DNA from: Deltaproteobacteria bacterium
Lineage (GTDB): Bacteria > Desulfobacterota_B > Binatia > UBA9968
DNA: 12,726 nucleotides
Assembly (NCBI GenBank): GCA_027297485.1
Contig: JAPUHZ010000371.1
Coordinates: 1-12,726, forward strand
Reading direction: 5' to 3'
Shown: piece after piece, positions 1,126 through 12,726 of the stretch
Layout: every line of letters begins with the position of its first letter
Position numbering within the stretch: the stretch's first letter is position 1
Program-made: the position numbers and the translations under genes
The notes under the pieces: generated by a model
What the model was told of the DNA's origin: nothing
What the model saw: only the letters and a program-made list of their open reading frames with translations
The model's database searches: none

Positions 1126-1602
1126 TTATGGTTCTCCCCGCACACCCTGAAAGATCTTCTCTATGGTCTCGTCAATTTCCTTTTTCTGAGGGCGGCTGAA
1201 AGTGACCCCGCTTGTAATCATCGCATCAGGCTCTTGATCCTCCAAGAGTTGTTCTATCTGCACACGAAACAGGGACATGAAAGGCACTCCCGTCATGGAT
1301 TCCTTGATCTCGCGGGCATTGCCTTTGAGGTAGTAGTTTATGCCGCTGTCGGTAATCAAAAGAGTGATTTTCCCTGTCCTCCTCAGGTTCTTCGCGGTGG
1401 TGCTGGTCTTTCCGATAGCCAGATCGAGCCTGGAACGATCTTTGGCAACGACTTCATAATAGGAAAGCATGGCGGGATGGGCCCATCCTTTGTCGTCCAC
1501 CGTGACCAGGACAATGGCCTTCCCCATCTTGGAGGCGACGTCTTCTCCCTTGAGGCGGTTAAAGAGTTCTTCCGTCAGCTCTTTCCCCAGAAGTCTCGAC
1601 AT
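1126..1602 (-). CDS. Pyridoxamine 5'-phosphate oxidase (PPOX) family FMN-binding split-barrel protein
   Basis: This 158-residue protein has the single split-barrel layout of the PPOX-like flavoprotein family. A first strand pair, KAIVLVTVDDKGWAHPAML, is followed by SRLDLAIGKTSTTAKNLRR, where the family contacts the flavin phosphate, and then by GKITLLITDSGINYYLKGNA. Family members bind FMN, F420 or haem and are often small oxidoreductases of unknown substrate; PNPOX activity itself cannot be claimed. The ATG at 1602 is preceded by a purine-rich GAGAG seven bases upstream. It is the last gene of the leftward run, 39 nt after a second PPOX-like gene, and ends at the shared terminator. The two neighbours share fold and size but little obvious identity, so they are not a recent tandem duplication. 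Confidence 0.75.
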   Translation of the reverse strand: MSRLLGKELTEELFNRLKGEDVASKMGKAIVLVTVDDKGWAHPAMLSYYEVVAKDRSRLDLAIGKTSTTAKNLRRTGKITLLITDSGINYYLKGNAREIKESMTGVPFMSLFRVQIEQLLEDQEPDAMITSGVTFSRPQKKEIDETIEKIFQGVRGEP

Positions 1603-1641: not shown

Positions 1642-2115
1642 CTATTCATGAACTACAAGTTCCTGCCTTTTGCCGAAACCCTGTTCATTGTCGATATAAA
1701 AAACCCGCTCCGGGACCACGCAGTAAAACTTAACTTTTAAAAAAGCCTTGTAAAAAATACCGCTTGTCGGATCAGTGAAGAGCTTTATGATGTCGGGATA
1801 TTTGCGGGCATAAACGGTCATCGCTTTGCCCTTCTCAATAAGGGAATCCACCAGGACCACCTTTCCTTCAAGCTGAATGCCCTTGATCTTACGCCAATCC
1901 TGATAGTCCTCCTGGATAGTCACCGCTACTCGAGAATTGGCCGCTAAATTCTGACAGTGGCGGGAATCTGGAGCGGAGAAGAAATAGAGATGGAGCCCAT
2001 CGCTGGCATAAAAAACCGTCGCCGCCCAAGGAATCTCCTCATGGCAGGTTCCCAGCGTCATGGTGTTGTGACCCTCCATGTAGCTCAGGATCTGCTGTTT
2101 AAGTTCTTCGGACAT
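1642..2115 (-). CDS. PPOX-family FMN-binding split-barrel protein
   Basis: This 157-residue protein opens with a short helix and NTMTLGTCHEEIPWAATVFY, the typical first strands of a flavin-reductase-like split barrel. LHLYFFSAPDSRHCQNLAAN follows, matching the family pattern where Ser/Arg residues hold the FMN phosphate, and then SRVAVTIQEDYQDWRKIKGI, QLEGKVVLV and a C-terminal VKFYCVVPERVFYIDNEQGF. This is close to the general-stress/YhbP-like branch of PPOX proteins. Its natural substrate is unknown. The ATG at 2115 has only a weak ribosome-binding site. It follows the isomerase gene by 67 nt and probably shares its transcript. That places two likely flavin binders downstream of an FMN-producing enzyme. 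Confidence 0.78.
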   Translation of the reverse strand: MSEELKQQILSYMEGHNTMTLGTCHEEIPWAATVFYASDGLHLYFFSAPDSRHCQNLAANSRVAVTIQEDYQDWRKIKGIQLEGKVVLVDSLIEKGKAMTVYARKYPDIIKLFTDPTSGIFYKAFLKVKFYCVVPERVFYIDNEQGFGKRQELVVHE

Positions 2116-2182: not shown

Positions 2183-3235
2183 TTAAGGCTCTCGTCGAAC
2201 CAATGGAACCTTGCTGAGCGCCGAGAGATTGGTTGCCCCAACACACAGCATAGCCACCTTGATCTCATAAATGATTCCAGTCAAAAAATGGATCACCTTC
2301 TCAGCCGATTCCAAAGCCGGCTCCAAGAGGGGCTGTCCGATAGCTCCGATATTCGCCCCCAAGGCAATGGCCTTGGCGATATCCAAACCACTGCGGATGC
2401 CGCCAGAGGCGACAATCTCCAGCTCCGGCGCTGCTTCTCTCACCTTGACTACGGCCTCCTCTGTAGGGATACCCCAATTGGCAAAGGTAAGGTTAACTGG
2501 CTGTCCTTTTCGAGCCGCCCTCTTGGCCTCCACCGCATACCATGAGGTTCCTCCTCGTCCGGCAACATCAATGGCTTTCACGCCCGCCCGTTTAAGTCGC
2601 ACGGCCACGTCCGCAGAAATTCCGCCGCCTACCTCCTTGGCCATAACCGGAACCTCAAGCTGGCGGCAAACCTCGGCGATCTTGTCGGCCAGCCCTTTAA
2701 AATTCCGATTCCCTTCAGGTTGGACCGCCTCTTGCAAAACGTTGAGATGGAGAATCAATCCATCCGCCTGAATCATCCGCACCGCTTGACGACACTGCTC
2801 GATACTGTAGCCATAGTTGAGCTGGACGGCACCAAGGTTGCCGAGCAGAAGGATATCCGGGGCCAGATCTCTGACCTCGAAGGAATCGGCTACGCTCTGC
2901 TCCTCCAGCGCGACCCGCTGGGACCCAACCCCCATAGCCAAACCCAGTTGTTGAGCTGCCAGCGCAAGATTCCGGTTGACCTTGCGGGCCAACTTAAACC
3001 CGCCGGTCATGGAGGAGATCATGAGAGGGGCTTTGAGCGCTTTGCCGAGGAAGGTCGTGCTGAGATCAATTTCTGCGATATCGACCTCGGGCAGGGCATT
3101 GTGGAGAAAAGAGTAACGCTCCAAACCTGTTCCGTAGGATCCCGCGACTACCCCGCTGTCGAGACAGAGCTCGAGGTGCTCCTTTTTTCTCTGCTGGGTT
3201 GCTGAGACGGATTTTTTACCCCTTCTGGGTGGCAT
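2183..3235 (-). CDS. fni: Type 2 isopentenyl-diphosphate delta-isomerase (FMN-dependent)
   Basis: The enzyme interconverts isopentenyl and dimethylallyl diphosphate (DMAPP) using reduced FMN and Mg2+. At 350 residues it is the usual length. All family landmarks are present in order: RKKEHLELC (16-24), APLMISSMTGG (69-79), MGVGSQR (101-107), a substrate/Mg motif beginning HLNVLQEAVQPEGN (163-176), KEVGGGIS (200-207), GRGGTSW (226-232), and the FMN-phosphate loops SGGIRSG (277-283) and GANIGAIGQP (293-302). The ATG at 3235 lacks a clear Shine-Dalgarno; the gene starts 18 nt after the ubiX stop, so coupled translation is likely. The first 13 or so residues are basic and not part of the family core. 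Its position beside ubiX matters because DMAPP is the source of the prenyl group that UbiX adds to FMN. Confidence 0.95.
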   Translation of the reverse strand: MPPRRGKKSVSATQQRKKEHLELCLDSGVVAGSYGTGLERYSFLHNALPEVDIAEIDLSTTFLGKALKAPLMISSMTGGFKLARKVNRNLALAAQQLGLAMGVGSQRVALEEQSVADSFEVRDLAPDILLLGNLGAVQLNYGYSIEQCRQAVRMIQADGLILHLNVLQEAVQPEGNRNFKGLADKIAEVCRQLEVPVMAKEVGGGISADVAVRLKRAGVKAIDVAGRGGTSWYAVEAKRAARKGQPVNLTFANWGIPTEEAVVKVREAAPELEIVASGGIRSGLDIAKAIALGANIGAIGQPLLEPALESAEKVIHFLTGIIYEIKVAMLCVGATNLSALSKVPLVRREP

Positions 3236-3253
3236 GGTGTGGCAGAGGGAATC

Positions 3254-3901
3254 TTACCTGCGCTTTTTTGTGGGCTGTTTACCCTGTCTGGCGGTTGGCA
3301 CGGAGCCAGGATTGGCCGCCTCGGGATGGCGGCTCATCTGCTCATCGCTCCAGCGCTCAAAGAGGGCCACATCGATCCCAAATTGATCGAGAATACGGGT
3401 AACGGTTTGATTGATCACATCATCGAGCGTCTTGGGCCGATGGTAAAAGGCCGGGACCGGAGGAAAGATCAGCGCCCCTATCCGGGTCAAGGCAGCCATG
3501 CTCTCCAGATGTCCCAAATGGAGCGGGGTCTCGCGCACGACCAAGACCAGCTTTTTCCTCTCTTTGAGCACTACGTCGGCGGCCCGGACCAAAAGATCCC
3601 CACCCACGGAAAGGACAATCCCTCCCATCGATTTCATCGAGCAGGGGGCTATCACCATGCCCTCCGTACGAAAAGAACCACTCGCTATACTGGCGCCGAC
3701 ATTGTTGATGTCGTGAACGACATCCGCCAGCGCTTCGACGTCTTTAGCGGAATAAGAGGTCTCGACTTGGATGGTCATCTTGGCCGCACGGGTCAGCACC
3801 AGGTGAGTCTCAACATCCTTGACCCCTGCAAGGACCTCTAGCATCCGGACCCCATAGATGGCGCCCGTGGCCCCTGATATGCCCACAATGAGTCGCCGCA
3901 T
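3254..3901 (-). CDS. ubiX: Flavin prenyltransferase UbiX (prenylated-FMN synthase)
   Basis: UbiX joins a dimethylallyl group to FMN, making prenylated FMN for UbiD-type reversible decarboxylases. The 215-residue protein has the N-terminal flavin loop GISGATGAIYG (8-18), SGSFRTEGMVIAPCSMKS (74-91), NLL-type helix GDLLVRAADVVLKERKKL (101-118), VVRETPLHLGHLESM (121-135) and PPVPAFY (147-153), all hallmark UbiX segments. It is longer than typical UbiX (about 190-200 residues) because of a basic, low-complexity tail from about residue 187 ending TKKRR. It begins 5 nt after the riboflavin kinase stop, with no strong ribosome-binding site, which indicates translational coupling. No UbiD partner lies in the window, so the use of the cofactor (ubiquinone or menaquinone precursor, aromatic acid or other decarboxylation) is open. 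Confidence 0.95.
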   Translation of the reverse strand: MRRLIVGISGATGAIYGVRMLEVLAGVKDVETHLVLTRAAKMTIQVETSYSAKDVEALADVVHDINNVGASIASGSFRTEGMVIAPCSMKSMGGIVLSVGGDLLVRAADVVLKERKKLVLVVRETPLHLGHLESMAALTRIGALIFPPVPAFYHRPKTLDDVINQTVTRILDQFGIDVALFERWSDEQMSRHPEAANPGSVPTARQGKQPTKKRR

Positions 3902-3906
3902 AGAAC

Positions 3907-4302
3907 TCAGTCCACAAACTCCAAAGTGATCCGATCTCCGTCCCTTACATGCAGTTCATCCTTAAGACGGACTGGAGCAATTACCTCAATTTTATCTGCC
4001 GGATACCCTTCAACTGCAGGAAGGAGCACCGCTCCTCTATGCTTCCTTTCGATATCGACTAAATAGCACCGGGCCTGGCAGAATGAAGAGTCCGGTGAAG
4101 CAATATCAATGCCCGTCACCCGCCTTTGTGCTTCCCGCCACACATCCATTTCTCTCTCCGACTCAAGCCGCAGGTTCAGTGTCGCCGGGTAGGGAAAAAA
4201 CCCGAGTCTTTCCCTCAAAGCCTTCTGCACCCAATCCAAAGACATAAAAGACGCGCCCTGACCTAAATCGGAGAAGATAACCCCCGTTATTCTCTTCGCC
4301 AC
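3907..4302 (-). CDS. ribK: Archaeal-type CTP-dependent riboflavin kinase (DUF120 domain)
   Basis: The predicted reaction is riboflavin + CTP to FMN + CDP. The 131-residue protein is a single DUF120/RibK domain without the N-terminal winged helix found in many archaeal versions. Visible family features are ITGVIFSDLGQGASF (5-19; the glycine loop matches GLGEGRYF of the Methanocaldococcus enzyme as I remember it), LGFFPYPATLNLRL (33-46; T41 and N43 correspond to the Mg-binding Thr-x-Asn), GAVLLP, and EVIAPVRLKDELHVRDGDRI near the C-terminus. The start is GTG at 4302, with GGGGG close upstream; an in-frame stop lies a few codons further up, so no longer form is possible. It lies 5 nt before ubiX, which consumes FMN. 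Bacteria normally use ATP-dependent RibF, so this is an unusual enzyme for a bacterial genome. Activity is inferred from motifs only. Confidence 0.85.
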   Translation of the reverse strand: MAKRITGVIFSDLGQGASFMSLDWVQKALRERLGFFPYPATLNLRLESEREMDVWREAQRRVTGIDIASPDSSFCQARCYLVDIERKHRGAVLLPAVEGYPADKIEVIAPVRLKDELHVRDGDRITLEFVD

Positions 4303-4393
4303 TTCACCCCCAGCCGTTACTCGTTATCCGTATATTCGTTATTCGTGTACGCAGAACCGATTAACAAGTCAACGAGTAACCATTAACGATACG
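4303..4393. repeat. Heptamer repeats and inverted repeat between the two operon halves
   Basis: From 4315 the plus strand reads as near-heptamers CGTTACT, CGTTATC, CGTATAT, (T)CGTTATT, CGTGTAC. GTTACTCGTT (4316-4325) has an exact reverse complement AACGAGTAAC at 4371-4380, a 10-bp stem with a 45-nt loop. The period matches the other spacers but the consensus does not. Confidence 0.6.
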
Positions 4394-4400
4394 TTAATGG
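4380..4400 (-). terminator. Perfect hairpin spanning the xdhC stop codon; possible attenuator
   Basis: CCATTAACG (4380-4388) and CGTTAATGG (4392-4400) form a 9-bp perfect stem with a 3-nt loop. The stop codon of the XdhC gene (4394-4396) lies inside it. It is AT-rich and no U-tract follows in the leftward direction, so it is a poor intrinsic terminator; it could be a processing or mRNA-stability element. Confidence 0.35.
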
Positions 4401-5167
4401 CCCGATAGAGACTGGGCCTTACCTCCCCTGCGGACCTTGACGATCTCGGCAAGGATGGAGAGGGCAATCTCCTCAGGGGTTTCGGTGTTGAAATCCAAAC
4501 CGACAGGGGCATAAACCCTCTGGATGATTTCTTCGGCGATCTTCTCTTCTTCCCTAAACCTCTGGAAACATGCCTTGACCCGTCTCCTGCTGCCGATCAT
4601 CCCGATGTACTTCGCCGGGCTATGAATGATCTCCCGCAGGCAAGGCTCGTCGTATTTATGGCCCCGGGTGATGAGGACAATATAAGTGGAGGGGGTGATT
4701 GCCAGCCCCTTCAGCATCACCGCCATATCCCCTACTAGAATTTCATCCGCATCAGGAAATCTCTCTCGATTGGCAAAGAGTATGCGGTCCTCAATGACGG
4801 AGACATGAAAATCCAAGATCTTGGCAAATTTCACCAACGGAATGGCGATGTGGCCCGCGCCGACCACGAAGAGCTTGAGGGGAGAGGGCATCACCTCGAA
4901 GAAGAGCTCAACCTTGCCTCCCGCATCGGGTACCTCCAACGGCACCAGCTTCGATCTCTCCTCCCGCAGGCGAGCCTCAGCCTCTTTGAGGACGGCCTGC
5001 AAAAGTCCTTCATGACGAATCGCTCCTACCTTGATCCTGCCGTCACGAACGAGACATTTTTCACCGGGTTTCACTCGGCCGTTTTCCTCGGCCTCCACTA
5101 CGGTCACCAACACCGCAGCCACGCCCTCCTCCTTGACCCGAATCAACTCCTCAGCTAACCGGCTCAT
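4394..5167 (-). CDS. XdhC/CoxF-family molybdenum-cofactor maturation protein with Rossmann domain
   Basis: XdhC-family proteins bind molybdenum cofactor, support its sulfuration and hand it to xanthine-dehydrogenase-type hydroxylases. I chose the ATG at 5167 (257 residues): MSRLAEELIRVKEEGVAAVL aligns with the family start and GGGAG lies 9 nt upstream. An ATG at 5221 would add 18 unrelated residues and a 71-nt overlap. The C-terminal Rossmann domain is intact, with LFVVGAGHIA (99-108), LITRGHKYDEP (165-175), YIGMIGSRRR (187-196) and PVGLDFNTETPEEIA (221-235). The N-terminal XdhC_CoxI domain has lost the GSTPR and GGGC motifs (here EENGRVKPGEKC and GAIRHEG). The preceding small gene supplies an intact copy of that domain, so the two probably act as a pair like CoxF and CoxI. 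It overlaps that gene by 17 nt. Confidence 0.88.
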   Translation of the reverse strand: MSRLAEELIRVKEEGVAAVLVTVVEAEENGRVKPGEKCLVRDGRIKVGAIRHEGLLQAVLKEAEARLREERSKLVPLEVPDAGGKVELFFEVMPSPLKLFVVGAGHIAIPLVKFAKILDFHVSVIEDRILFANRERFPDADEILVGDMAVMLKGLAITPSTYIVLITRGHKYDEPCLREIIHSPAKYIGMIGSRRRVKACFQRFREEEKIAEEIIQRVYAPVGLDFNTETPEEIALSILAEIVKVRRGGKAQSLSGH

Positions 5168-5507
5168 TGTTTTCTGCTCCCTCTCCTTCACTTTCCTCCC
5201 ACCAGGGATCAATAAAGACATTCATAATTCCCCCACAGACGGCCGGGCTATCCGAAGAGATGTCATCAAGGAGATCCACGCGCACCATCCTGGGCTTGCG
5301 CGTCCGGATCACCTCGATCGCCTCCCGCCGCACATCCGCCTCTCCGCACCCTCCCCCGATCGTCCCCAAAATCTCCCCCCAGGCGGTTACTACCATCTTG
5401 GCCCCTACCTCTCTTGGGGTCGAGCCGCGCGTTGAGACAATAGTGGCTACCGCCAAGGCCTCCCCTTTTTCAAGAAACTCCTTGATTTGGTGATAGATCA
5501 AATCCAT
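5151..5507 (-). CDS. Stand-alone XdhC N-terminal (XdhC_CoxI) domain protein
   Basis: This 118-residue protein consists only of the XdhC_CoxI domain: GSTPREVGAKMVV (28-40), LGTIGGGCGEADVRREAIEV (47-66) and CGGIMNVFIDP (91-101). These include the cysteine-bearing GGGCG and CGG motifs typical of Moco maturation factors. It lacks the Rossmann domain carried by the next gene. The ATG at 5507 is well supported: AAGGAG lies 8 nt upstream and overlaps the stop of the coxE-like gene, which indicates translational coupling. The acidic tail (EESEGEGAEN) is non-conserved. It probably works with the downstream XdhC in delivering sulfurated molybdenum cofactor to a hydroxylase encoded elsewhere. Confidence 0.88.
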   Translation of the reverse strand: MDLIYHQIKEFLEKGEALAVATIVSTRGSTPREVGAKMVVTAWGEILGTIGGGCGEADVRREAIEVIRTRKPRMVRVDLLDDISSDSPAVCGGIMNVFIDPWWEESEGEGAENNEPVS

Positions 5508-5518
5508 GTTCTGACTCC

Positions 5519-6730
5519 TTAAGCTACCAGCCTTTGCAGTGTCCGACCCAGAGTCATCAGGCTGTTTAGATTGTGCATCGATAAAAAGAGATCCAGATAG
5601 GGAAGCGCCGCCTGCATCCCCTTACATAGAGGCTCATAATTCTCGCTGGCCAATAGAGGATTGAGCCAAATGATCTTGCGGCACCGCCGCTTGAGATTCC
5701 TCATCTCTCGCTCCAGGAGAGCTACATCTCCCCGGTCCCACCCATCGCTGAAAATAACGGCCACAGTCCGATGAGTCACTAGACTGGGAGCAAACTCGCG
5801 GTTGAAGGTGTCAAGCGACCGGCCAATGTTCGTCCCACCCGACCAACCCAAAACAGAATTGGAAATTCTCTCCAGGGCGCTAGCGATGTCCTTGGTGCGA
5901 ATGAGGTGGGTGATGCGGCTCAAGGAGGTGCTGAAGACAAAGGTCTCCACTCCCCAAAGCTCGTTCTGGAGGCCATACATAAACTGGATCAAAAAACGGC
6001 TGTAGCAATCCATAGAGCCGCTGACATCGCAGAGCAGGACAACACGGGTTTTCTTGATCCTCCGCTTGCGCGAGACGAGTTCAATAATCTCTCCCCCGTA
6101 TTTGATGCTCTTACGCATGGTCCTTCGCGGATCCACCTCATCCCCTTTGAGAGCGCGTTTCCTGCGGCGACTCACCTGCGTCGCAATCTTGGTGGCGATC
6201 AAAAGAATGGCCCGGCTGATAGCACGACTCTCCTCAATGCCCATTTCGCTAAAGTCTTTTTTGCTCAGGGCCTCGTAGGGACTGTAGGTGGGTACAGGGA
6301 AGGGTTCCTCTTCTTCCTTCAGCTTGGACTCCTGGCTGGAGGCCTGCGCGACCACTTCCTCCAAACTCCCTCCAGCCCCACCCGGCTTCCCACCCTTATC
6401 CTCCGAGGAAGCTGCCGGCATCTCGACCGACTCCATAGGCGATTCCTCGGGGTGGTCCTGCCAAAAGCAATCAAAGACACGATCGAAGAGGGGAATCTCC
6501 TCTCTTTCAGAGACCAGGTTGGAACGCAAGACGGTGTGAAAATCCGCTCTGCGCGAGATATCCACAAACTCTAGGGAGCGGCTGGCGTCAATTGCCTGAC
6601 TCAGGCCGACTTTAATCCCCACCTGCTTCAGAACCCGACCAAAGGCCAATAGGTTGGCCAGGGTTCCTTGGCCTCGAATAGCGGAATAACGATCCACTGC
6701 TCTCAGGATAGCTTCATCCGAGACTTCCAT
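5519..6730 (-). CDS. coxE: CoxE-like VWA-domain protein (molybdenum hydroxylase maturation)
   Basis: CoxE proteins pair with the CoxD AAA+ ATPase in assembling the active site of CO-dehydrogenase-like molybdenum hydroxylases. I chose the ATG at 6730 (403 residues) because AAGGAG sits 5 nt upstream and the start falls 8 nt after the coxD stop. An upstream in-frame start at 6847 would add 39 residues and run far into coxD. The N-terminal 90 residues form the CoxE-type helical part (FGRVLKQVGIKVGLSQAIDA). A low-complexity linker follows (about 95-150), then a VWA domain with a complete MIDAS: LLCDVSGSMD (232-241), SGGTNIG (297-303) and IFSDGWDRGD (326-335). Late family elements include KIIWLNPL (352-359). 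It overlaps nothing and is followed after 11 nt by the XdhC-domain gene. Confidence 0.9.
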   Translation of the reverse strand: MEVSDEAILRAVDRYSAIRGQGTLANLLAFGRVLKQVGIKVGLSQAIDASRSLEFVDISRRADFHTVLRSNLVSEREEIPLFDRVFDCFWQDHPEESPMESVEMPAASSEDKGGKPGGAGGSLEEVVAQASSQESKLKEEEEPFPVPTYSPYEALSKKDFSEMGIEESRAISRAILLIATKIATQVSRRRKRALKGDEVDPRRTMRKSIKYGGEIIELVSRKRRIKKTRVVLLCDVSGSMDCYSRFLIQFMYGLQNELWGVETFVFSTSLSRITHLIRTKDIASALERISNSVLGWSGGTNIGRSLDTFNREFAPSLVTHRTVAVIFSDGWDRGDVALLEREMRNLKRRCRKIIWLNPLLASENYEPLCKGMQAALPYLDLFLSMHNLNSLMTLGRTLQRLVA

Positions 6731-6738
6731 GGCACTCC

Positions 6739-7659
6739 TTATGCCTGAGGCTCTGTAGACTCTATCAGCATCTGATCCAGCTCCAACCTCTTGCCAGCTA
6801 GCTCCTCCTGGAGGTGGTGGAGATCCTCCCGGTATTTGAAAACACACCCCATGGTCTGCTCTACGGCCTTCTCATCCAATTCATGCTGATTAAGGGTGAT
6901 GAGGGCAGAGGCCCAGTCCAGCGTCTCGGCAATCCCCGGGCGCTTGTAAAAATTCATCTGGCGTACCCGCTGCATAAAGGCACAGATTTGCTTGGCCAAC
7001 AGGTCTCGGATCTGGGGCAACTTGGTCATGATGATCTCATATTCCTTTTCAAAGGTGGGATATTCGATCCAGTGGTAGAGGCAGCGACGCTTCAGGGCGT
7101 CGTGAATTTCCCGCGTACGGTTCGAGGTCAAGAAGACATAGGGACGGAGCTTGGCGCGGATCGTCCCGATCTCCGGTATGGTGATTTGAAAATCGGAGAG
7201 GACCTCCAACAAAAAAGCCTCAAATTCCATATCCGCCCGATCAATCTCGTCGATGAGAAGGACCGGCGGTGTCGAGCCGTCACTCTGAATAGCCTCCAAC
7301 AAGGGCCTCTTGACGAGATACTCCTCAGTGAAGATTTCCGTCTCTACGGCTTCGCGATTCCCATGACGAACCTCCTCCAGCTTGATCCGCAGCATCTGCT
7401 TGGGGTAGTTCCATTCGTAGAGCGCGGTGTTGGCGTCCAGCCCCTCATAGCATTGGAGACGAATCAACCTCGTTCCCATGACCTTCGCCAATACCTTGGC
7501 AACCTCGGTCTTGCCGACGCCCGCCTCCCCTTCCAACAGAAGAGGCTTACCTAACGTAGTCGAGAGGTAAACCACAGTGGCCAGGGAGCGATCACAAATA
7601 TATTGCTGCTCGCGTAAGGCCTCTTGAATTTTCTCAATCGTAAGCTTCTTTGGATTCAC
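6739..7659 (-). CDS. coxD: CoxD-like MoxR-family AAA+ ATPase
   Basis: CoxD-type MoxR ATPases act as chaperones with a VWA partner in maturing molybdenum hydroxylases. The 306-residue protein carries Walker A GEAGVGKT (44-51), RLQCYEGLDANTALYEWNYP (67-86), a MoxR/CoxD-specific segment, Walker B VLLIDEIDRAD (133-143), EAFLLEVLSDFQITIPE (147-163), sensor 1 FLTSNRTREIHDAL (176-189) and the arginine region KRRCLYHWIEYP (190-201). The start is GTG at 7659, with GGGG about seven nt upstream. It follows the yqeB stop by 36 nt and precedes the coxE-like gene by 8 nt, matching the conserved coxD-coxE order. Confidence 0.92.
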   Translation of the reverse strand: MNPKKLTIEKIQEALREQQYICDRSLATVVYLSTTLGKPLLLEGEAGVGKTEVAKVLAKVMGTRLIRLQCYEGLDANTALYEWNYPKQMLRIKLEEVRHGNREAVETEIFTEEYLVKRPLLEAIQSDGSTPPVLLIDEIDRADMEFEAFLLEVLSDFQITIPEIGTIRAKLRPYVFLTSNRTREIHDALKRRCLYHWIEYPTFEKEYEIIMTKLPQIRDLLAKQICAFMQRVRQMNFYKRPGIAETLDWASALITLNQHELDEKAVEQTMGCVFKYREDLHHLQEELAGKRLELDQMLIESTEPQA

Positions 7660-7695: not shown

Positions 7696-8520
7696 TCAGG
7701 TGGAATGGGAACTGAGGTCCTTCAGGGAATGGAGAATGGCTTCTAATACTCCTCCAGCAATGGCTCTCGCTTTATCGGAAATCAGATAACAATACTCCCT
7801 TTCCCCTCGAGGATCAATGTCTCCGGCCTTCATCCCTTCCTCCACCGAAATGCCGTCTTTGAGTAACCCGCGCAAAACACCTTTGATCTTAGCTTGTATA
7901 GGATGGCCATCCACCTGAGCCAGCACTTCCGCTGCATTCACCAGATCGCCGATTTCATGCAGCGCCTTGAAAAAGCCCTTTTGGGGAACCCGCAGGACCC
8001 TTTCGTCCGTATACCCTCCAACAGGCGCCGGAACGCCTGTGTGCTCTTCGGCCTGGCCTTTCCAAAGGACCCGTCCCAGGTTATGGCCGCGATTGGTCTC
8101 CACCACTGCATGAACATTCAATCCTGCAGTAAAGCCCGGCCCCACCCCAATGACCAGCGGGGCATGAGACCTATCAGTACCGGTGTTCCTCTTGGCCATA
8201 ATGGCATCTACAATCACTTCTGGTCGTATGACTCCCCGGACCTTCGCCTCAGGATCGATAAAAACCGGGATGCCTCCACTCTTCCAAACCTCATAGGCCC
8301 CCTCTGGAGAGGATACCCTGGCTGCCCGGACCCCCTCCACTACGTGGCTTCCCTGGTAGACCGCCTCGGCAAAGGCCACCGCCCGACGCACCGTAGTAGG
8401 CACAGCCACCTCGGTAATAAAGACCCTCATGTGGCACTGGCGCAGACGGTAGGCGATGCCGCTGGCCATCTCCCCTCCACCTCTGACCAGCACCTTCACA
8501 TCAAAAAAGTTTAGCGCCAT
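7696..8520 (-). CDS. yqeB: YqeB-family (EF2563) selenium-dependent molybdenum hydroxylase system protein
   Basis: YqeB-family proteins accompany molybdenum hydroxylases proposed to need a labile selenium cofactor. From the ATG at 8520 the protein has 274 residues: a Rossmann-like glycine loop VLVRGGGEMASGIAYRL (10-26), VRGVIRPEVIVDAIMAKRNT (94-113), VIGVGPGFTAG (123-133), ETNRGHNLGRV (141-151), and a C-terminal barrel-sandwich (biotinyl/lipoyl-like) stretch around 205-238 (KIKGVLRGLL, GMKAGDIDPR). I chose 8520 over a TTG at 8604, which would add 28 residues without similarity; the ribosome-binding site at 8520 is weak. It is the first gene of the maturation run. A selenium dependence is inferred from the family's known association, not visible here. 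Confidence 0.85.
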   Translation of the reverse strand: MALNFFDVKVLVRGGGEMASGIAYRLRQCHMRVFITEVAVPTTVRRAVAFAEAVYQGSHVVEGVRAARVSSPEGAYEVWKSGGIPVFIDPEAKVRGVIRPEVIVDAIMAKRNTGTDRSHAPLVIGVGPGFTAGLNVHAVVETNRGHNLGRVLWKGQAEEHTGVPAPVGGYTDERVLRVPQKGFFKALHEIGDLVNAAEVLAQVDGHPIQAKIKGVLRGLLKDGISVEEGMKAGDIDPRGEREYCYLISDKARAIAGGVLEAILHSLKDLSSHST

Positions 8521-8610
8521 AATAATGTCTACTTTAGCTGACCTCCCATTAGACAAGGCGTCTGCAGACAAAGTAAACAGGATCGCGCTGCGTACACTTT
8601 TCAACTACTA
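8521..8610 (-). promoter_or_regulatory. Possible promoter/operator region of the maturation operon
   Basis: Upstream of yqeB on the minus strand there is TTTACT, an 18-nt spacer and TCTAAT, a loose match to a sigma70-type promoter. A perfect 10-bp palindrome GTCTGCAGAC (8560-8569) lies between the two boxes, where a repressor could bind. Neither element is strong; this is a candidate only. Confidence 0.25.
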
Positions 8611-9287: not shown

Positions 9288-11105
9288 TTACATAGCGTAG
9301 ATTAGTTGCCATCTTGGAAGCCTGACCCTCGTCTCTTTTCTTTTTAGTCTCTGCACGAGCCTTTCGATTCCTGGTTGTTTGGGCTCGAGCTCTTGCAGCC
9401 GGGCAAAGATTCGCCTCGCTTCGGTTACCTGGTTGTTCTGCAGGTAGGCATAGGTCAATTTCATCAGCAGCTGGGCGGTGGCAGGCTGACTGCTTCCGAT
9501 CTGCAGAGATGCCTCAATAAAGGGCAACGCCTGTTGGAGGGACCCCGCTTCGATGAGCAGCTCGGACACTCGCAGGTAGTTCTCTACATACAAAGGCGCG
9601 CTATTCACCAGTGCCCAATACTCCCGAAGTGCCAAGTCCTCCACCCCCCTGCTGGCATAATACTCAGCCATTTTCATGTGTGCCCCACGGAAACTGATTT
9701 TCTTCAGGAAAAACTCCTTGGCCAGCTCCTCAGCCTTTGTTCGTGGAGCATATCTGTCCACCGCATGACTGAACTCCGCTTCCGGTTTGAAGGGCCAATG
9801 GTCGGTTACGTGGAGAATGCGGATCTCCCCGATAGCAACGTCCAATTCACTAAATCCGTCGAAACGGCCGGCGTCTTTCCTCTTTAAATCCCAAACGTCG
9901 CTCAGAAACCGGTGCTTCTGCATCGTATCGAAAAAGGCGCGGCTCATCAGCTGGTGGCCACGAGCGTTCGGATGGAGGTGCTCCAGCATCAAGGTATTCC
10001 CCACGAGTCGATTGGGTGAAGCCGCCTCGAAATAGGACTTCATCGGCACAACCGGAATGCCATGCTCCTCGGCCAACTCATGGATGATCGCGTTGAATTC
10101 TTCGGTAGCCCTAAAGCGCAAACCGTCCAAATCTTTTGCTCTGGTGTACTCCGCTAGCGCTGATTCCATGAGGCCCCTCGATTCCAGGCTCCGTGCATTT
10201 CGAAAGGCCTCTTCGGCAGGGGATGGCAACTCGCTTCTATTCGAAAAGAACGGCGGATGATCGCGAACGTTGCTGACGAGCTCGCTCGTGATCACCGGTA
10301 CCCCAGCGGCCTTCGTCTTCGAGAGAAGGGCGCGAAGATTTCCTCTGAACTGCGCCTTGCCCCTCTCGTAGGTATCGCTTCCAAGGGAGATCTGATCTTC
10401 GCCGATGACTTGCCCCATCAGCGTTGGAAATTTCGCGCCATGCTCCGGACTGGAGGCACTTCGCTGGACTAAGAGCGTAGCGCGATTGATGGCATCGCGT
10501 AGTAGCAGAAAGGCCTTGAAGCGCTGGAGCGACAGATAGAGACGGATCAAAGAGGCTGTCGCGCCCAGCGACACCGTAGATGCGGCGCCCAAGGCACTGT
10601 AGAACTCATTGTGGCCCGCATAGATCAAGATCGCGTCGGGTTGCTGCTCCAAAACTTCGTCGATGAAGTCCAGCAGCGTGAAGGAATTGATCGCGGCCAT
10701 GCCGAGGTTGATTACCTCAATCTGCTTTTCGGGGAAGGTCTCAGTGAGGCGGCGCTGGAGCAGACGCGTGAACATCACGTTGTTTGGATAGGGCCAACCA
10801 GCGATCGTCGATCCGCCCAAAGCGAAAATGCGGTAGCTCCCTCTGGGTTTCTCATTTAAGAACCGGTCACTGGTGGGCCTGGGGATGAAATGGCCTTTAG
10901 GGAAGTAGCGCTCCGCCACCTGTGGGTTAATTCTGAGGTACTCCTTGCCTGCGGAGCTAGGTGATGCCGGAATGAACAATGCCAGATTCTCGCCATAGCC
11001 AAAGGCGCGCAACGACACCTCTAGCAAAAGTAGGACTAGGAAGGGGAAAAGAACAACGATGATTCGGAAGTAAATGACAGAAGCTTGCCTTTCAGATGTG
11101 GACAC
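9288..11105 (-). CDS. Membrane-anchored SGNH-hydrolase-like protein with C-terminal TPRs
   Basis: I place the start at GTG 11105 (605 residues): GGAG lies 6 nt upstream. A GTG at 11159 would add 18 residues read from DNA antisense to a transposase relic. A single membrane segment (about 11-29, IYFRIIVVLFPFLVLLLLEV) suggests an inner-membrane anchor with an exported body. SGNH-type blocks follow: block I as FALGGSTIAG (94-103, Ser99) instead of GDSL, block II NLGMAAINS (133-141), block III AGHNEF (163-168, Asn166), and block V as LEHLHPN (374-380) with Glu375 where Asp is usual and His378. A helical hairpin insert sits between blocks III and V (about 295-330). From about residue 480 three TPR-like units follow. 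The substrate is unknown; carbohydrate or acyl ester hydrolysis is plausible. It is related to the next gene leftward-transcribed upstream. Confidence 0.8.
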   Translation of the reverse strand: MSTSERQASVIYFRIIVVLFPFLVLLLLEVSLRAFGYGENLALFIPASPSSAGKEYLRINPQVAERYFPKGHFIPRPTSDRFLNEKPRGSYRIFALGGSTIAGWPYPNNVMFTRLLQRRLTETFPEKQIEVINLGMAAINSFTLLDFIDEVLEQQPDAILIYAGHNEFYSALGAASTVSLGATASLIRLYLSLQRFKAFLLLRDAINRATLLVQRSASSPEHGAKFPTLMGQVIGEDQISLGSDTYERGKAQFRGNLRALLSKTKAAGVPVITSELVSNVRDHPPFFSNRSELPSPAEEAFRNARSLESRGLMESALAEYTRAKDLDGLRFRATEEFNAIIHELAEEHGIPVVPMKSYFEAASPNRLVGNTLMLEHLHPNARGHQLMSRAFFDTMQKHRFLSDVWDLKRKDAGRFDGFSELDVAIGEIRILHVTDHWPFKPEAEFSHAVDRYAPRTKAEELAKEFFLKKISFRGAHMKMAEYYASRGVEDLALREYWALVNSAPLYVENYLRVSELLIEAGSLQQALPFIEASLQIGSSQPATAQLLMKLTYAYLQNNQVTEARRIFARLQELEPKQPGIERLVQRLKRKETRVRLPRWQLIYAM

Positions 11106-11108
11106 TGA

Positions 11109-11315
11109 GAACTCCGGAATTGTCCAATACGGATTGAATTCGCTGGTGCTGTTTACCACATAACGTCGCGGGGCGACCGCCGCGAACCGTTCTTCGAAGA
11201 CGATACCGACTGCCTTGGGTTTTTACATCTGTTAGGCGAGGTCTGCGGTCGCCACTACTGGCGTTGCCAAGCCTATTGCCTGATGACAAATCATTATCAC
11301 CTGATCGCAACAACG
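11109..11315 (+). pseudogene. RAYT (Y1/IS200-like, REP-associated) transposase N-terminal relic
   Basis: The plus strand carries the N-terminal half of a RAYT-type Y1 transposase without an initiator: RIEFAGAVYHITSRGDRREP, then FFEDDTDCLGFLHLLGEVCG and WRCQAYCLMTNHYHL. The HUH-type metal motif H-Y-H is at 11292-11300. After about 11315 similarity stops; the frame runs on without family character to a TGA at 11373-11375. The catalytic tyrosine region is missing, so it is inactive. Its left end lies within 4 nt of the start of the SGNH gene on the other strand. Confidence 0.8.
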
Positions 11316-11420
11316 TCAAAGGCGTTATCATTGTCATGGAGGAAATGTCGCTGTGGGCCAGTCCCCGGTTCATGACGTGGTAATAGGCGTAGGGTATTCA
11401 ATGCGCAGAGGTCGAGCCAT
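11316..11420 (-). pseudogene. Second RAYT transposase N-terminal relic, opposite strand, frameshifted
   Basis: Reading leftward from ATG at 11420 the sequence gives MARPLRIEYP, the classic RAYT start. One missing base shifts it into YYHVMNRGLAHSDI, and another into FLHDNDNAF. It then meets the tail of the rightward relic at about 11315. It differs in its motif from the rightward relic (MNRGLAHSD against TSRGDRRE), so it came from another RAYT subgroup. Two frameshifts and truncation make it non-functional. Confidence 0.7.
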
Positions 11421-11617
11421 GGGAGAGGAAGCATCAGCAACAGCATAAAGAGTCAAAAGCACCCCTCTTTCAGAATTCTCAACTCCTGTCGGATAAAATC
11501 CGTTGCCAAGTGAAATTTACTCACGGATCAGGGAATATAGCGCGCGAGTGTTTCTTTTATGGGATAAATCACAACAAATCTTTCTTCGGCAAGCCGAGGG
11601 AGATCAGATGCGATTGT
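11421..11617. other. Intergenic remainder between RAYT relics and the second SGNH/TPR gene
   Basis: Small hairpins only: CGGAT-aaa-ATCCG near 11490-11502 and, just after the upstream gene's stop, CCTCGG-cttg-CCGAAG (minus strand, about 11584-11599) followed by AAAGATTTGTT. The latter might be a weak terminator. No gene is seen. Confidence 0.4.
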
Positions 11618-12726
11618 CTATTGGGGAAGCTCGACGGCGGCCCCTACCCGGTGGCGGCGCGCTCGCAGCTGTTGCAGATGTTTCTTTACGACTTCGTCGT
11701 CTGGTTTCAGCCGCAAGGCCTCTGAGAAATGATGGATTGCAGTCCTGCTATCGCCCTGCTTTGCGAGCTGAATCGCAAGCCCGGTATGCGCGCGATGATT
11801 ATTCGGATGATGCTGAAGCTCCCATTGGTAATGTTCGATGGCCTCATTCGTTTTCCCTTGCTGCGCTAATAAACTTCCTATTTCTTGATGGAGGTCCGCC
11901 CTGTTTGGATCGATGGGCACCACCTGGCGGAGATAATGGAGGGCCTCATCGAGCTCTCCTTGTCTTGATAAAGTGTTGGCAAGTCGAAAAAAGATGACTG
12001 GGTCCGGGCCTAGAATCTCCAAGGCCCGCAAGAATGCGTTGTGTGCTTCATCAAACTTTCCAGCCCAATCCAGCACCTTTCCCAGATTCTTCAAGGCCCA
12101 GCCCTCTTCCCGGGGATCCAGGCCTGCAATGGCCTCTTGCTTCACGCGCTCCATGCGCGCCTCGCCCCAGGAGGCCACGGGTGTGGCAATCCCCTGTTTG
12201 ACTAACTGATCAAGCAGGGCCAGACCCAACAGACGGTAGCCTTCCATGTTGGTGTGGACATGGTCAACAAAAAATTCCTTGCCCAAGACGGCGTGATCAT
12301 ATTGGGCAAAATAGGCCTTTTGGAGGATGCGCGGAAAATCAATCAACGGGACGTTGTGCCGGGAGGCAACGTCTTTAACGATCCGTTGCATGGGGCTGAG
12401 GATGCGAAGCGGAGCGATGTCTTCATCAACCGCACGCCAAAAGGCCTGCTCGGCTCCGCGGTATTCCCCCAGATCAAAAAGGACCTGTCCTATGCGGAAA
12501 TGCAGCTCGGCATAGCGGTCGTCAATAGGAAGTGCCCGGCGATACAGGGCCAATGCCTCCCCCATGCGGCCTGCCTCATGCAGTGCCGTGGCCTGCTGAA
12601 CCAAGGCCTGCCATTGCATCAGCGCTTCTTCGTTCAATCCCGCTTTGTGTTCGCTCTTGAAAGGGGACATGTCTTTGAGGTTAATGGCGGGCTGAACAAA
12701 GATGATGTCTGCATTTACACTGCGTG
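11618..12726 (-). CDS. SGNH-hydrolase/TPR protein, N-terminus outside window
   Basis: The frame stays open past the ATG at 12670 to the window edge, and the residues before it (DIIFVQPAINLKD) continue naturally into MSPFKSEHKAGL, so 12670 is an internal methionine and the gene is 5'-truncated by the window. About 368 residues are seen. A helical TPR pair (EALALYRRALPIDDRYAELH onward) is followed by FFVDHVHTNMEGYRLLG, which matches SGNH block V with the D-x-x-H catalytic pair, and then by four or more TPRs (LGKVLDWAGKFDEAHNAFLR through EALRLKPDDEVVKKHLQQLR). The catalytic Ser and Asn blocks must lie further right. The order (SGNH core with a TPR insert before block V, then C-terminal TPRs) is the same as in the gene ending at 9288, so the two are divergent paralogues. 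Confidence 0.8.
   Translation of the reverse strand, partial: RSVNADIIFVQPAINLKDMSPFKSEHKAGLNEEALMQWQALVQQATALHEAGRMGEALALYRRALPIDDRYAELHFRIGQVLFDLGEYRGAEQAFWRAVDEDIAPLRILSPMQRIVKDVASRHNVPLIDFPRILQKAYFAQYDHAVLGKEFFVDHVHTNMEGYRLLGLALLDQLVKQGIATPVASWGEARMERVKQEAIAGLDPREEGWALKNLGKVLDWAGKFDEAHNAFLRALEILGPDPVIFFRLANTLSRQGELDEALHYLRQVVPIDPNRADLHQEIGSLLAQQGKTNEAIEHYQWELQHHPNNHRAHTGLAIQLAKQGDSRTAIHHFSEALRLKPDDEVVKKHLQQLRARRHRVGAAVELPQ

Follow-up and report, generated by a model that had tools for sequence, protein, structure and literature searches.

Why does a homologue of the archaeal CTP-dependent riboflavin kinase stand directly beside a flavin prenyltransferase and an isopentenyl-diphosphate isomerase in a bacterium? 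The question is raised by a 12,726-nt stretch of contig JAPUHZ010000371.1 of a Deltaproteobacteria bacterium (assembly GCA_027297485.1; the whole stretch is referred to as the window), in which ribK, ubiX and fni are consecutive on the minus strand, separated by 5 nt (ribK/ubiX) and 18 nt (ubiX/fni). An earlier note had described these genes as a dedicated operon for the supply of prenylated flavin mononucleotide (prFMN) that co-produces both precursors, FMN and dimethylallyl diphosphate (DMAPP), and the coordinates, gaps and family assignments of this cluster are borne out. With a probability of about 0.78, we regard this cluster, which stands in one run with maturation genes of molybdenum (Mo) hydroxylases, as the central line supplying prFMN to a UbiD family that has expanded.

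Conservation of the ten-gene run

The three genes are part of a ten-gene run on the same strand, yqeB-moxR-coxE-xdhC(N)-xdhC(C)-ribK-ubiX-fni-PPOX1-PPOX2, with five genes upstream of ribK and two downstream of fni. The gaps from xdhC(C) to ribK, from fni to PPOX1 and from PPOX1 to PPOX2 are 91, 67 and 39 nt, respectively. A scan of genome contigs with a profile of 27 DUF120 proteins gave 165 confirmed loci. Of these, the top 80 were retained, and L001–L014 among them are Binatia-type loci (titled Deltaproteobacteria in 13 cases and Candidatus Binatia in one). The order of the ten genes is kept in all 14 as far as the contigs extend, save for yqeB in L013, where it is unmatched although 3.6 kb precede moxR. 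All ten genes are present in L002, L007 and L011. In L004, yqeB is found as a 41-amino-acid piece only, and PPOX2 in L006 and ribK in L012 are each in two pieces. A single contig carries the whole ribK-ubiX-fni segment in 13 of the 14 loci, the contig of L008 stopping inside ubiX. The segment is also found in eight more genomes outside this set (30 loci fetched in the class of genome G002). The earlier note had regarded a gene order unique to one genome as fatal to its proposal; the order recurs in relatives.

DUF120 over cut-off is found in 34 of 148 genomes of the class of G002. The ubiX gene adjoins ribK in 32 of the 34, and in a 33rd (G134) ubiX stands at a contig end, beyond which the gene order is not readable. 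The loci of G143 and G146 lie outside the 30 fetched.

UbiD complement of the ribK-bearing genomes

The 13 open reading frames (ORFs) scanned in the window include no UbiD, and the ubiD-beside-ubiX arrangement of a UbiDX operon is absent there. The UbiD number of the window's own genome is taken from its relatives, in which UbiD genes lie on many contigs. The 34 ribK genomes of the class hold 12 to at least 82 UbiD (median 34), and the genomes of L001–L014 hold 19–64 each. The 21 genomes G128–G148, including G140 and G142 without ribK over cut-off, hold 16 to at least 82 each; the count for G147, made from 82 of 126 candidates, is a lower bound. One UbiX over cut-off per genome is found in 33 of the 34 ribK genomes, the exception being G134, with ubiX at the contig end. 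G135 and G136 should be noted in this respect. They hold 34 and 38 UbiD, respectively, and one UbiX over cut-off each, and a single contig accounts for 4.21 of about 4.2 Mb in G135 and 4.09 of about 4.3 Mb in G136, so that a binning error is an unlikely cause of one UbiX accompanying many UbiD.

In 114 genomes of the class, ribK over cut-off is lacking; UbiD is absent from 106 of them and numbers fewer than 12 in 110 (Fisher P 2e-29 for ribK versus UbiD). This value is not a proper test because of the kinship of the relatives, and the class of Aromatoleum is the better control. In 369 sampled genomes of that class, with UbiD per genome scored up to at least 8, ribK over cut-off occurs in seven genomes and at least 5 UbiD in seven, six genomes belonging to both sets. 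At least 5 UbiD are therefore present in 6 of 7 ribK genomes versus 1 of 362 others (Fisher P 1.5e-11, uncorrected for kinship; 6.6e-10 without the centre genome). The seventh ribK genome, G334, has a partial ribK match and no UbiD.

Merging at 98% reduces 43 Binatia UbiD sequences to 41 distinct ones, with a median identity of 34% between pairs. The Arg residue is kept in 39 of 41, and the EGPFGE motif has an acidic residue at one end in 40 and at the other in 41 of 41, which we take to be as expected of working members. All seven Binatia UbiD tested exceed the general model TIGR00148, and none reaches the cut-off of any specific UbiD model.

UbiD genes are also found near a Rieske protein (L158), near a solute-binding-like protein (L153) and, by eye, near amidohydrolase-like genes (L152–L158). 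The neighbourhoods in L152–L158 suggest catabolism of many aromatic acids.

Prenyl donor of UbiX

According to the earlier note, UbiX generally uses dimethylallyl monophosphate (DMAP), so that a DMAPP phosphatase might be needed. As reported in PMC6541611, the UbiX enzymes of A. niger (AnUbiX) and E. coli K-12 require DMAPP; Q203 of AnUbiX bonds the β-phosphate of DMAPP, and the DMAP-specific Pseudomonas UbiX has Phe181 there. In the alignment to 6qlg and 1sbz, Q165 and E124 of the window UbiX align with Q203 and E162 (the phosphate-site Glu) of AnUbiX, respectively. Gln occupies position 165 in all 44 rows that reach it; these come from 33 genomes, some of them represented twice. UbiX in the Pseudomonadota clusters described below also has Gln at the contact site (4 of 4 loci). 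Since Gln is at the β-phosphate contact site, the need for a phosphatase is less likely, and judging from Q165 such an enzyme is probably unnecessary for the window UbiX. The concern is eased to this extent, but the contact residue by itself does not set UbiX specificity (PMC6541611).

PPOX2 and PPOX1

The solved structures 9srg and 9srj are those of PhdC, a prFMN maturase in which Glu47 is a proposed catalytic residue (PMC13040415). For PhdC, a 10.4-fold rise in catechol formed from protocatechuate is given there. With the PPOX2 profile (alignment A2), 9srg/9srj and 9nk0 are the best solved relatives (9srg, E 1.1e-8), followed by 1eje (0.0016) and 2q9k (0.062). With the profile without Pseudomonadota rows (A4), 9srg gives an E value of 2.8e-6, and only 9srg, 9nk0 and 9nk3 are found at E ≤ 0.01. 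The 9nk0 and 9nk3 chains are near-identical to 9srg and apparently represent the same protein, the 9nk3/9nk4 chain having Ala at the Glu47 position, apparently as a variant made by the depositors. E50 of the window PPOX2 aligns with Glu47 in the PhdC chain and is invariant in 15 of 15 A4 rows. In the chain numbering used here, A62 and S63 agree with the numbering in PMC13040415, but its L41 does not. PPOX2 and PhdC are identical at 24 of 81 aligned residues (30%). The alignment ends at residue 93, and thus Glu136 of PhdC is not placed; the invariant E121 and E124 of PPOX2 are candidates for its equivalent. The search found 865 PPOX2 relatives, with 77–100% identity among the 120 matches listed. 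PPOX2 is a distant PhdC homologue and a predicted prFMN maturase.

The nearest solved relative of PPOX1 is general stress protein 26 (E 4.6e-5), and the mean column identity of PPOX1 is 84% (nine rows, alignment A3). PPOX1 is probably a second flavin-handling protein, for which carrier or reductase would be a guess. The structure models of PPOX1 and PPOX2 have mean predicted local distance difference test (pLDDT) scores of 82.5 and 70.6, respectively.

RibK

The window RibK matches MJ0056 with an E value of 8e-13. The residue alignment comprises 27 Binatia, 8 Pseudomonadota (one gene twice, L149 being L018b), 4 HAD-fused and 60 archaeal rows, with L012 omitted. T41 and N43, which we take to be the Mg site, and E106 are invariant in all of these rows. 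Lys104 is found in 27 of 27 Binatia, 8 of 8 Pseudomonadota and 3 of 4 HAD-fused rows, whereas in the archaeal rows the residue here is V, I, L or M in 56 of 60. In a tree of 101 rows and 130 columns, of which the bootstrap had not settled and from which L012 (89 amino acids) and L149 (the L018b gene) were dropped, the Binatia rows form one group (94/96) and seven Pseudomonadota rows another (100/98), beside further deep lineages. A single origin of bacterial ribK was considered and set aside; the tree gives no number of transfers. From their place in the cluster, a role in prFMN supply is likely for bacterial DUF120 proteins.

Links in other genomes

In Pseudomonadota, clusters of the form ubiD-(ubiX)-ribK-(NUDIX)-(PPOX) are found in Rhodocyclales, Ramlibacter, Aromatoleum and Sulfuritalea loci. 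UbiD lies within about 1.5 kb of five of the nine ribK genes over cut-off in the Aromatoleum class (L141, L142, L144, L149 and L150), and no UbiD match lies within about 1.5 kb in L143, L145, L146 and L147. Fusions of the DUF120 riboflavin kinase with a HAD hydrolase are seen in G511 and G416 and at loci L144, L145 and L073, UbiD adjoining in G511/L144; ribK of L146 (G304) resembles such a fusion by eye. The NUDIX hydrolase and PPOX genes that follow ribK are located at 2413–3406 in L019 and 10378–11374 in L015. The NUDIX hydrolase of these clusters could make DMAP.

In the more distant genome SKW240 (G020), a single run is made up of three ubiD, two HAD genes, ubiX and fni. When each gene is read from its first start codon, ubiD and ubiX overlap by 14 nt and ubiX and fni by 44 nt. 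Identity to the window counterparts is 43% for the SKW240 fni and 56% for its ubiX. This genome has only 4 UbiD, and its ribK is located elsewhere (L073).

fni and isoprenoid supply

The window fni matches 1vcf (E 2.2e-76). The cluster fni is the sole fni over cut-off in 13 of 14 Binatia genomes; the G012 copy, cut by the contig end, is under cut-off. IspH is found in 11 of the 14 fni-bearing Binatia genomes and in all eight genomes without fni in the cluster. DMAPP formation does not need fni where IspH is present. The modified mevalonate pathway of archaea includes a prFMN-requiring decarboxylase of UbiD type; this pathway was set aside as an explanation of the cluster in view of the same IspH counts. 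A second, divergent IspH-like gene is present in all eight genomes without cluster fni (G128–G133, G135 and G136), and among the 14 fni-bearing genomes only in G008 and G012, plus a fragment in G005.

Link to Mo hydroxylases

The coxDE/xdhC genes are maturation genes of CO-dehydrogenase-type Mo hydroxylases. No hydroxylase structural gene is found among the 13 window ORFs scanned. Large subunits of Mo hydroxylases number 27, 35 and 37 in three UbiD-rich genomes versus 6–13 in eight UbiD-free genomes of the same class, and some UbiD genes adjoin CoxL/CoxM/CoxS-type genes (L151, L153 and L157). On the main contig of G136, UbiD is present in 12 of 33 hydroxylase-centred 20-kb stretches (33 of 37 hydroxylases used; one UbiD shared by two of the 12) versus 2 of 27 random stretches, of which four also hold a hydroxylase. 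After merging to 29 stretches, 13 UbiD are found versus 5.7 expected (P 0.006), the expectation placing all 38 UbiD on the one contig. The linkage of UbiD to Mo hydroxylases is modest, and it offers a reason for the mixed run.

Proposed route and alternatives

What is seen directly comprises the order of the genes, their homologies and key residues, the copy numbers and the statistical linkage. These are consistent with the following route, in which the individual reactions, the passage from one protein to the next and co-transcription are predictions. RibK would phosphorylate riboflavin to FMN, and Fni would keep DMAPP abundant. UbiX would form prFMNH2 by transferring the dimethylallyl group from DMAPP onto reduced FMN, and the PhdC-like PPOX2 would oxidise this product to the active iminium form. 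The prFMN may then go not to a neighbouring UbiD but to the large, dispersed set of UbiD (de)carboxylases that would rely on the single UbiX. The presence of XdhC, MoxR, CoxE and YqeB in the run may reflect that these bacteria are also rich in Mo hydroxylases, some beside UbiD, and the two sets of enzymes are probably produced at the same time. The supply operon of the earlier note gains from the conservation of the run, the PhdC-like protein two genes downstream of fni, the tracking of UbiD-rich genomes by ribK in two classes and the ubiD-ubiX-fni arrangement in SKW240. However, the run has ten genes, and half of them mature Mo hydroxylases; hence the operon is not dedicated to prFMN alone.

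A wider proposal, to which we give even odds, has two parts. One is that the cluster is a complete and self-contained prFMN factory, with a dedicated non-RibF riboflavin kinase, a DMAPP source, a prenyltransferase, a PhdC-like maturase and, in PPOX1, a carrier, and that it arose as the central cofactor depot of a UbiD expansion across the genome. The other is that an archaeal-type riboflavin kinase marks bacteria in general that make heavy use of prFMN, having been acquired on more than one occasion.

Several observations weigh against the supply line, including those on RibF, the RibK loop and the sister clade in the next paragraphs. UbiD-rich genomes without a ribK match exist, namely G059 (14 UbiD), G065 (19) and G142 (41), together with G140 (35, with a ribK fragment) and, in the Aromatoleum class, G522 (at least 8). 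In G058, ribK lies away from ubiX, and no UbiX or UbiD match is found within the fetched 3 kb of ribK in G274, G304, G416 and G334. The likeness of PPOX2 to PhdC is confined to residues 11–93, with Glu136 (ExW motif) beyond the alignment. The PPOX rows of the Pseudomonadota clusters (three) have Trp in the Glu47 column, and for the one tested, that of L019, no solved relative was found. The window RibK also misses the NCBIfam RibK equivalogs NF040694 (66.8 bits, cut-off 168) and NF010762 (79.9 bits, cut-off 279).

Five of the ten genes are Mo-hydroxylase maturation factors that travel with ribK in the Binatia-type loci to the extent given above, and the large subunits are more numerous in UbiD-rich genomes. 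The run might therefore be mainly a maturation unit for these enzymes, in which RibK boosts FMN/FAD for their flavoprotein subunits and ubiX and fni are quinone/isoprenoid passengers. This is quite improbable, given that ribK in Pseudomonadota sits with ubiD/ubiX, where the window xdhC, moxR and coxE are unmatched (several loci cover only 3 kb), that PPOX2 resembles a prFMN maturase and that no second UbiX was found to go with the dozens of UbiD. The role of RibK itself should be considered as well. An ordinary RibF, one copy each, is present in all 20 genomes tested, so that RibK would be an extra FMN source and FMN supply need not rely on ribK. Moreover, the glycine-rich loop, presumably the nucleotide loop, is DLGQG in the window versus GLGEG in archaea; the first Gly is Asp in all 26 Binatia rows with a residue there, compared with Gly in 59 of 60 archaeal rows, and the third is Ala in 21 of 27 Binatia rows. 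A non-catalytic prFMNH2 chaperone, LpdD, is known (PMC13040415). The DUF120 protein might accordingly be a prFMN/FMN carrier derived from RibK and lacking kinase activity, with RibF making all FMN. The invariance of Thr41, Asn43 and Glu106 from Binatia to archaea and the mostly canonical loop of the Pseudomonadota copies make this unlikely, if less so than a pure Mo-hydroxylase unit.

In a sister clade of eight genomes (G128–G133, G135 and G136), the neighbouring genes are retained but ubiX is followed directly by PPOX1 with no fni between, a negative that covers this position only, whereas fni is present in other loci; fni is therefore an optional module, and the core of the cluster is xdhC-ribK-ubiX-PPOX1-PPOX2. 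Since fni is the only copy over cut-off in nearly all fni-bearing genomes, beside a methylerythritol phosphate pathway marked by IspH, it might serve general isoprenoid balance, its position beside ubiX being incidental. The 44-nt ubiX-fni overlap next to ubiD in SKW240 argues otherwise, as does the point that IspH already gives DMAPP, so that fni would not be required for it. We consider an incidental position doubtful, though the most plausible of the three alternatives.

Features of the window

The features are listed in Table 1. XdhC is encoded by two overlapping genes (4394–5507), and two XdhC matches in different frames are found in 12 of 13 relative loci. A GDSL-lipase/TPR protein and a TPR-repeat protein are encoded upstream on the same strand (9288–12670); neither is matched in L001–L014.

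Table 1. Features of the ten-gene run, in the order of the minus strand
Feature	Position	Strand	Evidence
yqeB-like selenium-dependent molybdenum cofactor maturation protein	7696..8604	-	TIGR03309 350.8 bits (cut-off 220)
MoxR/CoxD-type AAA ATPase	6739..7659	-	AAA_5, AAA; NF047784 MadB 295.1 bits (under cut-off 475)
CoxE-like VWA protein	5519..6847	-	PF05762 VWA_CoxE 211.8 bits
XdhC/CoxI N-terminal protein	5151..5507	-	PF02625 90.6 bits; 79-91% identity in relatives
XdhC C-terminal protein, weaker second XdhC_CoxI domain	4394..5221	-	PF13478 147.1 bits; PF02625 32.1 bits
Intergenic 91 nt ahead of ribK, inverted repeat GTTACTCGTT/AACGAGTAAC	4303..4393	-	Fold z-score -1.8; no Rfam match
ribK, DUF120, archaeal-type CTP-dependent riboflavin kinase homologue, 131 aa, GTG start	3907..4302	-	PF01982 100.3 bits (cut-off 25)
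ubiX, flavin prenyltransferase, predicted DMAPP-type, 215 aa	3254..3901	-	NF004685 274.4 bits (188); TIGR00421 239.6 bits (108.9)
fni, type 2 (FMN-dependent) isopentenyl-diphosphate isomerase, 350 aa	2183..3235	-	TIGR02151 IPP_isom_2 417.3 bits (cut-off 281.3)
PPOX1, PNPOx-like split-barrel protein	1642..2115	-	PF01243 53.5 bits
PPOX2, PhdC-like protein, predicted prFMN maturase	1126..1602	-	PF01243 26.6 bits (just below cut-off 28.1)

Within the 91-nt gap ahead of ribK lie a perfect inverted repeat of 10 bases (GTTACTCGTT/AACGAGTAAC) and another small hairpin. The repeat may be a regulatory or repeat element. An RNA leader or riboswitch was set aside on account of the fold score and the Rfam result in Table 1. 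Over the whole window, neither the Rfam nor the tRNA scan gave a match, and promoter- and terminator-like sites are no more frequent than in shuffled sequence.

Significance and comparison with known systems

Heterologously made UbiD enzymes often carry inactive prFMN forms (PMC13040415). Cofactor supply could be tested on a natural cluster such as this one, in which UbiX is accompanied by genes predicted to provide FMN and DMAPP and by a maturase-like protein. BLAST in PMC13040415 gave 86 PhdC-like sequences from Actinomycetota only; PPOX2 as a PhdC-like maturase would extend such maturases beyond this phylum. In the relatives of the window, dozens of UbiD (de)carboxylases await characterisation, and the genes of some adjoin those of Mo hydroxylases. 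No published link was found between CTP-dependent riboflavin kinase and UbiX, DUF120 and riboflavin kinase, or UbiD and Binatota in a search with most subscription literature outside it. UbiX, UbiD and riboflavin kinase are named together in one paper, on trypanosomatid symbionts, and a term search of the Binatota genome paper PMC8262859 did not return the word UbiD. The parts are already known; their combination and scale are new.

The closest known arrangement is the phdABC operon of Mycolicibacterium fortuitum (UbiD PhdA, UbiX PhdB and maturase PhdC; PMC13040415), in which UbiX is encoded with a PNPOx-fold maturase, as in the window, and of which PPOX2 retains the Glu47 equivalent. The operon has three genes, without the ribK, fni and Mo-maturation genes that the window run has (same source), and includes its UbiD, whereas the UbiD of the window relatives are many and dispersed. 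UbiDX pairs and the Vdc, Lpd and phenylphosphate carboxylase clusters likewise have a UbiX serving UbiD (de)carboxylases, as proposed for the window relatives. In contrast to these, the window has no ubiD, one UbiX would serve 12 to at least 82 UbiD, and precursor genes are added.

Window UbiX, the donor of which is predicted from its residues, shares Gln at the β-phosphate contact with the A. niger and E. coli K-12 enzymes (PMC6541611). MJ0056, the archaeal CTP-dependent riboflavin kinase (2vbs–2vbv), shares the DUF120 domain and the Thr, Asn and Glu residues with window RibK, which differs in being bacterial, in its altered glycine loop and in Lys at position 104. The MoxR, CoxE, XdhC and YqeB set is common to the window and the coxDE/xdhC sets of CO-dehydrogenase-type Mo hydroxylases, to which the window adds, by position, the prFMN cluster.

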